A stretch of DNA of 64,000 nt, taken from positions 1 through 64,000 of the forward strand of contig CANQXK010000002.1 of the NCBI GenBank assembly GCA_947627715.1, given 5' to 3'. Shown one piece after another: positions 58,657-63,176 of the stretch (the stretch's first letter is position 1; each line of letters begins with the position of its first letter). A program made the position numbers and the translations under genes. Under the pieces are notes generated by a model. The model did no database searches, was not told the DNA's origin, and worked only from the letters and a program-made list of their open reading frames with translations. This stretch comes from an uncultured Oscillospiraceae bacterium. Its GTDB lineage: Bacteria; Bacillota; Clostridia; Oscillospirales; Oscillospiraceae.

Positions 58657-59028
58657 ATGAAGTTCGATTTTATGCAGTATCTGCGGGCGTTTGTGGCCGG
58701 CGGGGCGCTGTGCGTCATCGGCCAGATCTTGGTGGACAAGACGAAGCTCACCCCGGCGCGGATCCTCACCGCGTTCGTCGTGGCGGGCGTGGTGCTGGGC
58801 GCCTTCGGGATCTACCAGCCCTTTGCCGACTGGGCGGGCGCGGGGGCGACGGTGCCGCTCACCGGCTTTGGCAACAACCTGGCGAAGGGCGTTCGGAAGG
58901 CCGTGGAGGAGAAGGGCCTCATCGGGGCCTTTACCGGCGGGTTCACCGCCGCCGCGGGAGGCATCGGCGCGGCGGTGTTCTTCGGCTACCTCGTGTCGGT
59001 CATCTTCAAGCCGGGGGACAAGAGCTGA
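58657..59028 (+). CDS. spoVAE: Stage V sporulation protein AE
   Basis: Membrane protein of 123 residues with hydrophobic helices (LRAFVAGGALCVIGQIL, ILTAFVVAGVVLGAFGIY, then AAAGGIGAAVFFGYLVSVIF) and the conserved GFGNNLAKGVRKAV. Acts with SpoVAC and SpoVAD in dipicolinate transport. 10 bases after spoVAD. The mobile unit begins about 100 bases downstream. Confidence 0.93.
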   Translation: MKFDFMQYLRAFVAGGALCVIGQILVDKTKLTPARILTAFVVAGVVLGAFGIYQPFADWAGAGATVPLTGFGNNLAKGVRKAVEEKGLIGAFTGGFTAAAGGIGAAVFFGYLVSVIFKPGDKS

Positions 59029-59117
59029 AAAGGCCGCGCACGCCCCGCTCCCCTGCGGCGCTCCCTGCCGAAGCGCGGCTTCGGCAGGGGTCCGGCCGGG
59101 CTTTGAAAAAGGGGCCG

Positions 59118-59124
59118 CCCCTCC
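59118..59124 (+). repeat. Direct repeat CCCCTCC flanking the mobile unit, left
   Basis: Identical to 62530-62536. Reads as a target-site duplication on either side of the 30-base terminal inverted repeats. Confidence 0.65.
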
Positions 59125-59154
59125 CCAATGTCATTAAGTTAAAATCCCTACCCC
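59125..59154 (+). repeat. Left terminal inverted repeat of the mobile unit
   Basis: 30 bases, outer end CCAATGTCATTAAG, inner end CCCTACCCC; exact reverse complement at 62500-62529. Confidence 0.8.
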
Positions 59155-59212
59155 TACACGTTGAGGGAATGATTACGCGTGACAACTGGAATGATTAGAG
59201 GCGGGAAAAGTG

Positions 59213-59248
59213 AAAAGGCTCTCCGGCTTTTGGGCGGGGGCCTTTTTT
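59213..59248 (+). terminator. Possible terminator inside the mobile unit, left
   Basis: AAAAGGC and GCCTTTT with a long G+C-containing loop and six T. May stop transcription entering from spoVAE. Confidence 0.4.
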
Positions 59249-59327
59249 GTAGAATGTGCATAATTTTACTGGTAGTATAACGCCAAGCGTCAAGTGGGCG
59301 GTTTTTCGACTTATCGGTGTTTGCCTG

Positions 59328-59356
59328 TTGACCTTTCAGGAATCTTGAGGTACAAT
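59328..59356 (+). promoter_or_regulatory. SigA-type promoter of the passenger acetyltransferase
   Basis: TTGACC, 17 bases, TACAAT. Leader of about 105 bases follows. Confidence 0.65.
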
Positions 59357-59415
59357 ATGCTTGTCATCGGAGGCTGTGTACCGTAGTACCATAATGCCGG
59401 ATTAGGTGTCCAAGT

Positions 59416-59464
59416 GAGCTTGGGTTATTGTGTAACAATAGCCGAGGCTCTATTTTTTTGGAGG
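59416..59464 (+). promoter_or_regulatory. Terminator-like hairpin abutting the GNAT ribosome binding site (attenuator candidate)
   Basis: GAGC...GGTTATTG pairs with CAATAGCC...GGCTC (about 13 pairs with small bulges), then TATTTTTTT and at once GGAGG. The T run ends one base before the binding site. This layout suggests transcription attenuation of the acetyltransferase gene; what would relieve it is unknown. Confidence 0.6.
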
Positions 59465-59469
59465 TATTT

Positions 59470-60024
59470 ATGAAAAATACGAAAGTTACCCTTGTCCCAC
59501 TCGCGGCAGATGACCGTGAACAGTTTATCCTTGACAATCAATGGGCATTCAAGTACGGTGCGATGATGGAATTCGGAGAGCGAGATGACCACATTGACGA
59601 TAACGGAGAAATCATCTCTCGCGCAACCATTGAGAGTTCTCTTGACGACCCGAATAGTGAAGCCTACCGCATTGTACTTGACGGCGAAAAGGTTGGTGGC
59701 ATCATACTCACAACAGATAAGGAAACACATCACAACCACTTGGATATTCTGTTTGTTTTACCCGAAGCGCACAGCAAAGGCATCGGCTATGGCGCTTGGC
59801 AAGCGGTTGAGGCTCTGCATCCCGAAACTTTGGTTTGGGAAACCTGTACACCGTATTTTGAGAAACGTAATATCCACTTCTATGTAAACAAATGCGGGTT
59901 TCAAATCGACCAGTTCTGGTGTGCGTATTTCCAATCAGAAGTCGATATGAACGATACCGGGAAAAACGATTCTGATGAAGGTCCTGACGAAATGTTTCAC
60001 TTTATTAAGGTGATGAAGCCGTAA
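59470..60024 (+). CDS. GNAT-family N-acetyltransferase (mobile unit passenger)
   Basis: 184 residues, GNAT fold. The acetyl-CoA loop is PEAHSKGIGYGAWQAVE, with strand LDILFVLP before it and a C-terminal FYVNKCGFQIDQFW typical of small-molecule acetyltransferases. The N-terminus has KVTLVPLAADDREQFI. Codons are A+T-leaning, unlike the chromosomal genes. Start ATG behind GGAGG. A promoter, an attenuator-like hairpin and a terminator (60112) make it a self-contained cassette. Substrate unknown; a resistance or detoxification role is speculation. Confidence 0.88.
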   Translation: MKNTKVTLVPLAADDREQFILDNQWAFKYGAMMEFGERDDHIDDNGEIISRATIESSLDDPNSEAYRIVLDGEKVGGIILTTDKETHHNHLDILFVLPEAHSKGIGYGAWQAVEALHPETLVWETCTPYFEKRNIHFYVNKCGFQIDQFWCAYFQSEVDMNDTGKNDSDEGPDEMFHFIKVMKP

Positions 60025-60395
60025 CTTTAACATCTCCCTTTTGTCGAGACGATTCAACCTCTTTAGGAAGAATGCACATCTATACATAGTCTCTGGGCAT
60101 TATCAGGCGCAAAAAAGGACGGTATTGTAAACACAATACCGTCCTTTTTGCATATATACCGCTTCACAAGCCCTCATCAGGTGCGGGGCGTTCAATTTCC
60201 AGTTTACGCCGCCAAGTTTGGCATATTATGGCTCTGCTTCTCCTTCTTATTTCCAGCCATTTCATCAAGAAATTCCGTATTATCTTTTCATCATTTCTTG
60301 TATAAATTCCTTCTAAATAAGAAAAGATTTGCGCAATAAGGCCCTAAAACGGCTGTTTTGGGGGTGATTTTACGGGTTTTTGCGAAAACAACCTG
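60025..60395. other. Non-coding stretch between passenger gene and transposase
   Basis: Contains the strong terminator at 60112-60149 and otherwise A+T-rich sequence with no credible gene or repeat that I can recognise. Confidence 0.6.
60112..60149 (+). terminator. Terminator after the passenger acetyltransferase
   Basis: 17 perfect base pairs (60112-60128 with 60133-60149), loop AAAC, ending in T5. Works in both directions. Confidence 0.9.
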
Positions 60396-61706
60396 TCACG
60401 CCGCCACGCGATAGGTGAAGCCGGGGAAGGACTTGGGCCGAAGGTTTCGGGCGTCCGCGCGGTTCGGCTTGACTGGCTCTGTGTACTTCGCAATTTCCAG
60501 CAAAAGCCGCTCCCCGTCCCCCTCCGGGGCGCGGAAATAGTCGCGGCACAGCGCCATCGCCATCTTCATGTTAACAGCGTACTTGTAAACATTCGTCGCC
60601 TTTTTCTGAATGACAGCGCCTCTCACAATGCGGGAACAAAAGTTGAACATCGTCATAGCCCCATAAATTTCCTGCCACACAGAATTGACGCTTTTGCTAT
60701 GCAGGTTCACCATCCCGATGTTATACTTGAGCTGTCGAAAGCTCGTCTCGATGCCCCATCTGGCGTGATAAAGCTCCTTTAGCTCGTCGGGCGTGATGCT
60801 CCGTGGCAGGGAGGTAACAAGTGTTTCATACTTCCCTGTGTCGAGCATGAACCGCACAACGCGGAATTTGAGGGGATACGGGCTCGGAAAGTCCCAACGC
60901 GCGGGGCGGGTCGTGGAGTTCTGTTTGTACGTCCTTTTTGGAACTTGTAAAAGGATATAGCCATTTTCCTTGTCCCGTTTGGTTTGTGTCGTTGTAATCG
61001 TCATAGCCAAGTCACGGTCAAGCGGCATCATCGGGAGCTTTGCGACCTCCCGCATCGCTCCAGCGCCGTCTTTGACACGCAGGAGAAAGTCCACGTTAGG
61101 TTTCAACATAAGGTGGGCAATCATGTTGTATCCTTCGTAGCCCCGGTCCATAACAATCAGTGTCTTATCCGGGAAACGGTGGGCGTTAAGCATCCAGATT
61201 AATGCGCCTATCTCGTCCATACTGGGCTGTGGTTGTAGGACGCAGTCATAATAAGTTTTGTTTAAAACGTCATAAAGCGGGTTGATATGGGTCTGGCAAT
61301 AGCCTTTGGGGTTGCTGGCGTTGCACACAAAGCACGGGGATTTTGGGTCGCGTGCCATATTGACCGTGGAGCCGTCCACAGCGAAAACACGGTAGCCCAG
61401 ATATGTTTCCGGGTCGGGGTGAAGTCTGTTGAAGTCCAGAAGGATTTCACGGAAGATGTTAAACTCAACTTTTCCGCGCTGTTGGACAAAGGCGGCGGCG
61501 GAAACATCGAGGCCGCAGTCGTGAAGCTCCTTGTTGAGACTTCCGCCCTGCATACTGATTACGGTTCGCAAAAGGGTTTCAAGTGGGAGTTTGCGGTTTC
61601 GGCTGAAATCTGTCAGCCCTCCGGGGACATAGCCACCGCGCAGGAAGGAGGCGGAATGTATCGCCCGGTCAAGCTCAGCTTTGACGGTTTCGGGAAGTGA
61701 TGCCAT
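60396..61706 (-). CDS. IS4-family DDE transposase
   Basis: 436 residues, full length. DDE triad regions: first Asp in YRVFAVDGSTVNMA, second Asp in LIVMDRGYEGYNMIAH, and the Glu in the IS4 signature YHARWGIETSFRQLKYNIG, where Y, R, E and K spacing fits the YREK motif. Start ATG 61706 (MASLPETV) behind AGGAGA; ATG 61736 and 61757 are upstream alternatives. A TATAAT lies at 61821-61826 on the minus strand without a clear -35 box. No frameshift or internal stop, so it may be active. Confidence 0.92.
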   Translation of the reverse strand: MASLPETVKAELDRAIHSASFLRGGYVPGGLTDFSRNRKLPLETLLRTVISMQGGSLNKELHDCGLDVSAAAFVQQRGKVEFNIFREILLDFNRLHPDPETYLGYRVFAVDGSTVNMARDPKSPCFVCNASNPKGYCQTHINPLYDVLNKTYYDCVLQPQPSMDEIGALIWMLNAHRFPDKTLIVMDRGYEGYNMIAHLMLKPNVDFLLRVKDGAGAMREVAKLPMMPLDRDLAMTITTTQTKRDKENGYILLQVPKRTYKQNSTTRPARWDFPSPYPLKFRVVRFMLDTGKYETLVTSLPRSITPDELKELYHARWGIETSFRQLKYNIGMVNLHSKSVNSVWQEIYGAMTMFNFCSRIVRGAVIQKKATNVYKYAVNMKMAMALCRDYFRAPEGDGERLLLEIAKYTEPVKPNRADARNLRPKSFPGFTYRVAA

Positions 61707-61895
61707 TGGGATTTTCTCCTGTATTTTGATGCGCATGGCCGCATTTGCGCCACACATCGGCGCACGAGCGCCGAACAGGAGTTTTACTTTTAAATGTCCG
61801 TGATTTTATTTTTTAATCCCATTATACCGGCGAAAAAACATAAAAGGTTAACAAAAAATGAACAAATCAAAAGGAACCGAAAAGCGGCAAAAATC

Positions 61896-62412
61896 ATTTT
61901 TGAGACGTAAATAGGACTTGTTGATATTGGGCGGTAAGCATTGTTTTGGGGAATGACTATTTTGGAAAAGTCGGTGTCAAGCGGCTTTTTGATACGTCAT
62001 CTGGACTTGTTGCAAGGCGTTGTCAATCATTCGGATTTTTCGCGCTGTTGGCACGTTCGGAATAAGTGCCGATTTTTTTATACGTTCAAAGGACATGTTG
62101 AGATTTTCCTGTTGTTGGGTTGGGGAGCGGAAAAACGTAGAAAAATTTTTTGACGAGACAATTCTGCTTTTGCAAGAGGTGTCCCATAGCGTATTTTTGC
62201 GTTTAGCCTATTTTTTATATCATTTCGAGGACTTGTTGAGATTGGCAAGGAAAAACTAATTTAGACCATCTTATACCGCTTTTTCACACAAGCCGCTGTT
62301 TTTTACATCGTTGCACAAACTTGTTGTAATGAGACACACATCATTCCATATTGGCTTTTTTCTTAAACCCGCGCAACTTTTACATCATTTCCTTGACTTG
62401 TTGATACCCCGC
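61896..62412 (+). repeat. Six degenerate direct repeats with an ACTTGTTG core and 14-base-spaced T-tract
   Basis: Cores start at 61916, 62005, 62093 (ACATGTTG), 62231, 62319 and 62396; intervals 89, 88, 138, 88 and 77. In every copy a run of at least four T ends exactly 14 bases before the core. The 14 bases follow a loose RAYRYCRTY pattern and often end in GG; ATATTGG, AGATTGG or similar often follows the core. The constant spacing without insertions argues for real units rather than chance. On the minus strand each reads CAACAAGT followed by a run of A. Confidence 0.7.
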
Positions 62413-62417
62413 AAAAT

Positions 62418-62451
62418 ATAGAGCGCACAGCAACAACGCCGTGCGCTCTAT
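62418..62451. repeat. Hairpin near the right end of the mobile unit
   Basis: ATAGAGCGCAC, 12-base loop, GTGCGCTCTAT: 11 perfect base pairs between the last repeat copy and the right inverted repeat. Confidence 0.6.
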
Positions 62452-62499
62452 GCGCGTCTTAACTTAACGCCGCTGGCCCTTTCGGCACAATGCCAATTT

Positions 62500-62529
62500 G
62501 GGGTAGGGATTTTAACTTAATGACATTGG
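62500..62529 (-). repeat. Right terminal inverted repeat of the mobile unit
   Basis: Exact reverse complement of 59125-59154. Confidence 0.8.
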
Positions 62530-62536
62530 CCCCTCC
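62530..62536 (+). repeat. Direct repeat CCCCTCC flanking the mobile unit, right
   Basis: Matches 59118-59124. Confidence 0.65.
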
Positions 62537-62539
62537 CCC

Positions 62540-62567
62540 TTGCATTTTTCCGCAAGTGTGGTATACT
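62540..62567 (+). promoter_or_regulatory. SigA-type promoter of the uracil-DNA glycosylase gene
   Basis: TTGCAT, 16 bases, TATACT with TGG upstream of the -10 box. The mobile unit ends 10 bases before the -35 box, leaving the promoter core intact. Confidence 0.7.
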
Positions 62568-62600
62568 TTGAGCATCGTAATAAGAGCGTGGGGTGACGGT

Positions 62601-63176
62601 ATGACCTGGGAAGAGCTTGAGCGGTCGTGCAAGCGGTGCGAGAAGTGCGCGCTGTGCGACACGCGCACCAACGTGGTCTTCGGCGTGGGCAACAAAAACG
62701 CCCGCGTCCTGTTCGTGGGTGAAGGCCCCGGCGAAAACGAGGACCTTCAGGGGGAACCCTTTGTGGGCCGGGGCGGACAGCTTCTGGACGTGATGCTGGA
62801 GATCATCGGCCTTGACCGAAAGAAGAACGTCTACATAGCCAACATCGTCAAATGCCGGCCCCCCAAGAACCGCGACCCGCTGGGGGTGGAGCAGGAGGCC
62901 TGCATCGGCTGGCTCCGGGAGCAGATACGCCTTCTCCGCCCTGAGATCGTGGTGTGCCTCGGCCGCATCGCCGCCCAGGTGCTTATCAAGCCCGATTTTA
63001 AGATCACCAGCGAACACGGGAAATTTTTTGACGTGGACGGCGTCACGTATACGGCGCTCTACCACCCGGCGGCGCTTCTGCGCGACCCCCGGAAAAAGCC
63101 CGACACCTTTGTGGACCTGAAGGCCCTTCAGGAAAAGATCCTCCAGCTCGCGCCTGAGGTCTACAGCGCCGGCTGA
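62601..63176 (+). CDS. Uracil-DNA glycosylase, family 4 type (iron-sulfur)
   Basis: Removes uracil from DNA for base excision repair. 191 residues. The N-terminal Cys group CKRCEKCALCDTR and later KCRPPKNRDP with EACIGW provide the 4Fe-4S ligands. The active-site motif FVGEGPGENEDLQGEPFVGRGG is followed by C-terminal ALYHPAALLRDP. Start ATG 62601 behind GGGGTGA. 23 bases before the next gene on the same strand. Confidence 0.95.
   Translation: MTWEELERSCKRCEKCALCDTRTNVVFGVGNKNARVLFVGEGPGENEDLQGEPFVGRGGQLLDVMLEIIGLDRKKNVYIANIVKCRPPKNRDPLGVEQEACIGWLREQIRLLRPEIVVCLGRIAAQVLIKPDFKITSEHGKFFDVDGVTYTALYHPAALLRDPRKKPDTFVDLKALQEKILQLAPEVYSAG

Follow-up and report, generated by a model that had tools for sequence, protein, structure and literature searches.

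A rigid array of 29-bp sites inside an IS4-family cargo transposon: a candidate internal platform for transposition

The IS4 family, with its relatives Tn5 and Tn10, supplies textbook models of transposition in which only two ends and a transposase matter. One element in the window analyzed here (the whole stretch of 64,000 nucleotides from an uncultured Oscillospiraceae bacterium) carries something more, and this raises an intriguing question. What is an array of six short direct repeats doing in a transposon arm in which no convincing gene could be found? The initial annotation of the window, which had likewise described the array region as free of genes, offered three candidate roles: transposase-binding sites as in Tn7-like ends, a series of small-RNA units, or iterons for replication or copy control.

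The transposon and its six sites

The array lies within an element whose ends, which the initial annotation had not given, carry perfect 17-bp inverted repeats, CAATGTCATTAAGTTAA (Table 1). Only two proteins are encoded, a transposase and a GNAT-family acetyltransferase, whose genes are convergent and separated by a perfect hairpin that probably acts as a bidirectional terminator. The transposase matches the IS4-family model NF033592 at 146.7 bits (cut-off, 115) and PF01609 with an E value of 7.5e-20, and its Y-R-E-K signature sits in YHARWGIETSFRQLK. A TATAAT sequence upstream of its gene is likely the -10 box of the transposase promoter, and the array lies upstream of this box in the transposase direction. 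Since the element has no replication gene, the suggestion of replication or copy-control iterons finds no support.

Members of the IS4 subgroup are described as having ends of the form -AATR--------WTW and duplications of ~10 bp (10 to 13 bp), and the known ones are compact, at 1400 to 1650 bp (PMC2266710). The repeat CAATGTCATTAAGTTAA at both ends fits the subgroup pattern -AATR--------WTW---- position by position and is identical to the terminal repeat of IS1675; target duplications are 9 bp in the window copy and 10 bp in L002, L005, L006, L007, L116, and L117. The element is a member of the IS4 family, and its ends and duplications fit subgroup IS4; the size of 1400 to 1650 bp with a transposase only, which is typical of the subgroup and not a strict rule, does not extend to this 3403-bp element with cargo and array.

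TABLE 1 Coordinates of the transposon, its genes, and its repeats within the 64-kb window
Feature	Coordinates	Strand	Details
Target duplication, left copy	59117..59125	.	GCCCCTCCC, 9 bp
IS4-family cargo transposon	59126..62528	- (transposase direction)	3403 bp; 17-bp terminal repeats and 9-bp duplication
Terminal inverted repeat, cargo side	59126..59142	+	CAATGTCATTAAGTTAA
Cargo gene, GNAT-family acetyltransferase	59428..60024	+	PF00583, E 5e-9
Perfect hairpin between cargo and transposase genes	60112..60149	.	17-bp arms with A and T runs; probable bidirectional terminator
IS4-family DDE transposase gene	60396..61757	-	453 aa; PF01609, NF033592, Y-R-E-K signature
TATAAT, likely -10 box	61821..61826	-	kept in L002, L004, L006
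Array site 6	61898..61926	-	TATCAACAAGTCCTATTTACGTCTCAAAA
Array site 5	61987..62015	-	TTGCAACAAGTCCAGATGACGTATCAAAA
Array site 4	62075..62103	-	CAACATGT; one mismatch
Array site 3	62213..62241	-	TCTCAACAAGTCCTCGAAATGATATAAAA
Array site 2	62301..62329	-	TTACAACAAGTTTGTGCAACGATGTAAAA
Array site 1, closest to element end	62378..62406	-	TATCAACAAGTCAAGGAAATGATGTAAAA
Hairpin between internal box and site 1	62418..62451	.	AGAGCGCACAGC...GCYGTGCGCTCT
Internal copy of inner terminal-repeat box	62459..62467	-	TTAAGTTAA
Terminal inverted repeat, array side	62512..62528	-	CAATGTCATTAAGTTAA
Target duplication, right copy	62529..62537	.	GCCCCTCCC, 9 bp

The array spans 61898 to 62406, between the array-side terminal repeat and the transposase gene, and the other end of the element has no such array. 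As the initial annotation had described, five copies of ACTTGTTG and one of ACATGTTG are present on the plus strand (at 61916, 62005, 62093 for ACATGTTG, 62231, 62319, and 62396), and three of the five intervals are 88 or 89 bases (start-to-start distances, 89, 88, 138, 88, and 77). The further claim that a T-tract ends 14 bases upstream of every copy is true of five; the ACATGTTG copy has a longer T-run, which ends at 13 bases. Exact ACTTGTTG occurs six times in the 64 kb, five of them in the array, against 0.95 expected, and none of 100 shuffles reached six. Read in the transposase direction (minus strand), the full unit is a rigid 29-bp site without indels, T..CAACAAGT.......A.G....AAAA, in which A.G lies about one helical turn and the A-tract about two turns from the site core. 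A scan of the 772-bp arm with this pattern at up to 2 mismatches returned 6 sites versus 0.01 expected (0 of 1000 shuffles). The site shares only a loose likeness (AATGT) with the terminal repeat.

Conservation of the sites among relatives

Six further copies of the element come from gut-metagenome genomes of related Oscillospiraceae (L002, L003, and L004, together with L006, L007, and L008 in one genome), each with 3 to 6 units at the same place. Alignment of 28 units, drawn from six elements of the genus, required no indel across the 29-bp site; nine positions are invariant (T-3, A2, C3, G6, A15, G17, and three of the A-tract), and the remainder of CAACAAGT is nearly so. Counting as site positions only those that the initial annotation had named from the window copy, we found that the window copy and L006 differ at 2 of 72 site positions and at 69 of 403 positions elsewhere (P = 6e-4), and the window copy and L003 at 0 of 39 and 68 of 231, respectively (P = 5e-6); the corresponding figures are 6/72 and 85/403 for L002 and 0/48 and 39/233 for L004. 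The comparison with homologous elements that the initial annotation had proposed therefore comes out in its favor for the 14-base spacing, which is kept while the surrounding sequence drifts. The 88-base period fares less well, holding for three intervals of the window copy and being only a tendency across the family, where unit distances run from 66 to 151. The helical phase of these distances is not convincing, the best fit of 11.5 bp being the edge of the range and the distances not being independent. Compared by eye with features of known sites, the unit was rejected as a host IHF site (no IHF TTR half), as an Xer/dif or integrase-arm site (no dyad), and as a -10 promoter element (an invariant G where the -10 box has A).

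Units have been lost in L004, L007, and L008 by deletions with junctions within sites. L007 and L008 have one shared shortened array of three units at two loci with different flanks, so that a three-unit element has been inserted more than once; perhaps the six-unit L006 of the same genome helped these insertions in trans. In L002 (4557 to 5906) and L006 (4173 to 5900), BspA-type leucine-rich-repeat lipoproteins replace the acetyltransferase as cargo, indicating that cargo is exchanged within one element lineage.

The same array is also present in four distant lineages (L116, L117, L119, and L132), whose transposases are 49 to 57% identical. These elements have the terminal repeat in common but not the cargo. 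L116 (G050), an element of 6145 bp with a clean 10-bp duplication, CCCCTCGGGG, has as cargo an MmeI-type restriction-modification enzyme together with a DUF6414 protein; L117, with the duplication CCTGAGACGG, carries a hexapeptide acetyltransferase; and in L119, which is one and the same element as L005, the cargo is an S-layer-homology protein. In L132, from another bacterial family, a downstream protein of 478 aa has no NCBIfam match, and the contig stops before a right end could be found. The window-clade array stands between element end and transposase, and that of the four distant lineages is mid-element, between the transposase and the downstream gene, with two of the L132 sites inverted. 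Scanning their intergenic stretches with the window-clade pattern at up to 3 mismatches gave 4 sites in L116, 4 in L117, 3 in L119, and 4 in L132, where 0.05 to 0.12 are expected by chance (0 of 1000 shuffles), and the 19 distant-lineage units taken by themselves yield the same consensus, CAACWAGT......AATG....AAAAAT. Degenerate sites are seen in L118, an element cut by its contig. The leaders upstream of the transposase start in L034/L119, L035/L117, L118, and L132 contain short GAGA..- or AGCCAAAA-type repeats of their own, such as GAGAGACAA in L118; these repeats are unlike the array.

All array-bearing transposases form one clade (support, 93/98) that spans two bacterial families, and 92% of bootstrap trees have a single change. 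Compact IS4 elements, including IS1675, fall outside this clade, and a search of nine compact, cargo-free relatives found the array in none of them; three (L134, L135, and L037) have clean duplications with neither array nor cargo. The initial annotation had regarded mobile relatives without the array as evidence against a role for it. Such relatives exist among distant compact IS4 elements, which makes the array characteristic of a single clade rather than of IS4 elements at large. Elements of the array clade are 3.4 to 6.1 kb long and have cargo. Overall, the array appears to have been gained once, coinciding with cargo carriage, in a small sample of five lineages, one of them without a right end. 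Array-bearing transposases (434 to 453 aa) are no longer than compact ones (436 to 462 aa, bar one short annotated start), meaning that they have no obvious extra domain for reading the sites.

How widely does the site occur outside these elements? Exact-pattern matching across 396 related genomes located the site in such elements only, except for one lone match in each of two genomes; a reversed control pattern gave three matches in the same scan. Searches for carriers among viral contigs and phages gave nothing useful. Relatives on plasmids all have <60% identity, and the three examined lack the array.

What the array may do

The array has a companion: the inner box of the terminal repeat, TTAAGTTAA, also occurs inside the element. 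One to three internal boxes occur in each of the 7 array elements counted (7/7; 0.02 to 0.2 expected), and none was found in the 9 compact relatives. A plus-oriented box precedes the next site by 22 to 23 nt in L116, L117, and L119; the corresponding gap in the window element measures 60 nt and contains a 34-nt hairpin.

A DNA site bound by protein is favored by the rigid spacing, the lack of RNA structure, the inversions in L132, and the shifting gene position, and a cis-acting DNA element fits because the array is not fixed in position relative to the genes and has inverted sites in L132. With moderate confidence, we read the array as double-stranded protein-binding sites that would work in cis as a platform within the element, promoting assembly or acting as an enhancer in transposition. 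The CAACWAGT-N7-AYG-N4-AAAA sites and the internal TTAAGTTAA boxes would be occupied by the transposase or by a host DNA-binding protein that it recruits, and the occupied array would help to join the ends of a cargo-lengthened element or gate when the ends meet. We infer from sequence the binding of a protein, a binder that is the transposase or its partner, and an effect on transposition; binding by the transposase itself would be a guess, because array-bearing transposases have no extra length. The enhancer reading is preferred because the array accompanies the terminal-repeat boxes and one transposase clade, whatever gene adjoins. Against it stand the compact elements L134, L135, and L037, which have no array, and the three-unit copy inserted at two loci. 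The loose likeness of the site to the terminal repeat, the ordinary length of the array-bearing transposases, and the unconvincing helical phase also count against it. A wider proposal, which we advance tentatively and with some doubt, is that one IS4 clade evolved, once, a movable internal transpositional enhancer, composed of ~29-bp sites and terminal-repeat boxes, that its transposase would use to assemble the ends of long cargo elements. If this is correct, such an enhancer would offer small insertion sequences a route to becoming true transposons.

The main rival, which we consider unlikely, is an operator array through which a host regulator, or the transposase as autoregulator, would control transcription of transposase or cargo. 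Rigid sites would suit a regulator equally well as a transposase, and the geometry is suggestive in places: the window-clade array is directly upstream of the transposase promoter, and the last site of L116 is ~38 nt ahead of the cargo start codon. However, the array is downstream of the transposase in all four distant lineages; in L119, where the cargo gene is convergent, it is located at the 3' end of that gene. The cargo genes are also mutually unrelated. A host regulon is further disfavored by the 396 related genomes, which contain no other multi-copy locus of the site.

Could the sites instead serve recombination? Cargo exchange or changes in copy number by a host site-specific recombinase or by homologous recombination would accord with a cargo that differs in each lineage, with the position of the array at the transposase-cargo border in four lineages, and with the deletion junctions within sites in L004 and L007/L008. 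Yet ordinary slippage also predicts junctions in the sole shared sequence, inspection of the sites revealed no Xer- or integrase-type dyad symmetry, the element has no recombinase gene, and the window-clade array lies away from the cargo border. We regard this explanation as improbable.

Even less probable is a role as RNA, whether as serial small RNAs or as one structured noncoding RNA. Hairpins do stand near the T-tract in some units, GGCAC/GTGCC in the window being replaced by GGCGC/GCGCC in L006, and unit 1 of L003 contains a perfect hairpin. Nevertheless, the folding energies of 33 units did not depart from those of dinucleotide shuffles (mean z, -0.25 to 0.12 on both strands in three framings), stems enclosing the site were not in excess over permuted flanks (P = 0.28), and alignment folding of the arm into an RNA consensus gave a covariation term of 0.07. 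Terminator-like sites are absent from the arm, and promoter-like sites occur in it at chance rate; an Rfam scan of 59000 to 62700 yielded no credible match, and the inverted sites of L132 also count against an RNA. The small-RNA units of the initial annotation are not borne out by these results. Finally, a functionless relic of a decaying tandem duplication, although it would account for the wide divergence of units outside the site and for the units lost by recombination, is hardly credible for sites that change several times more slowly than the intervening DNA and are kept across transposases at 49 to 57% identity.

Known systems and side observations

Tn7 carries several short, spaced, directly repeated transposase sites in both ends, and these include the terminal sequence. 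The array shares the short, spaced, directly repeated sites but is internal, one-sided, and unlike the terminal repeat. The Tn7-like end-binding sites of the initial annotation therefore survive as binding sites, a reading backed by the fixed spacing, the resistance to substitution, the conservation throughout the clade, and the absence of RNA structure, but not as an end, since the array is mid-element in four relatives. The retention of the array across ~50% identical transposases, together with the internal terminal-repeat boxes, would imply an extra layer of assembly or control, and its appearance coincides with the step from a bare insertion sequence to a carrier of cargo (acetyltransferases, leucine-rich-repeat and S-layer proteins, and an MmeI-type restriction system).

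The closest logic, by analogy, may be that of phage Mu, whose transposase binds an internal enhancer that favors formation of the transposition complex (PMC3362531). The array is internal too, and for its part has terminal-repeat boxes beside it, but the Mu transposase belongs to another family and has a separate enhancer-binding subdomain, whereas no extra domain is evident in the array transposases. Within the IS4 family, the elements resemble the IS1675-like IS4 subgroup in their DDE transposase with Y-R-E-K, ends, and duplications, and they differ in their length of 3.4 to 6.1 kb, cargo, internal terminal-repeat boxes, and site array. IS231 has extra DNA between its left end and the transposase gene (PMC2266710). 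IS231 elements with passenger genes and MIC231 are likewise IS4-family elements enlarged by cargo but belong to a different subgroup by their ends; the 2008 revision of the family recorded cargo only in the IS231 subgroup and saw none in other subgroups (PMC2266710). A search of that text for tandem repeats, enhancers, and binding sites came back empty, and no description of such arrays in IS4 elements was found in the open-license literature searched.

The hairpin between the internal box and site 1 has a distribution of its own. Among 34 genomes of the genus, the intergenic stretches read contain the repeat AGAGCGCACRGC-N6-GCYGTGCGCTCT in 9, both within and outside the transposon (62418 to 62451 of the window, G000:C28, G000:C40, G006:C42, G014, G016:C1, G021:C6, G027, G030, and G032); it could be either a terminator or a small palindromic repeat. 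An element-end fossil without a transposase, consisting of TTAGTTAAG, the hairpin, and GGTATCAACAAGTCGG, occurs at ~1500 to 1600 of L070, L071, and L072, in three species and apparently at the same place between two genes. In the same genome as the window, a degenerate terminal repeat and the hairpin, with neither array nor transposase, are found at G000:C28:5266-5369 (L069) and are followed by what appears to be a further acetyltransferase gene; this remnant could be a cargo-only derivative.
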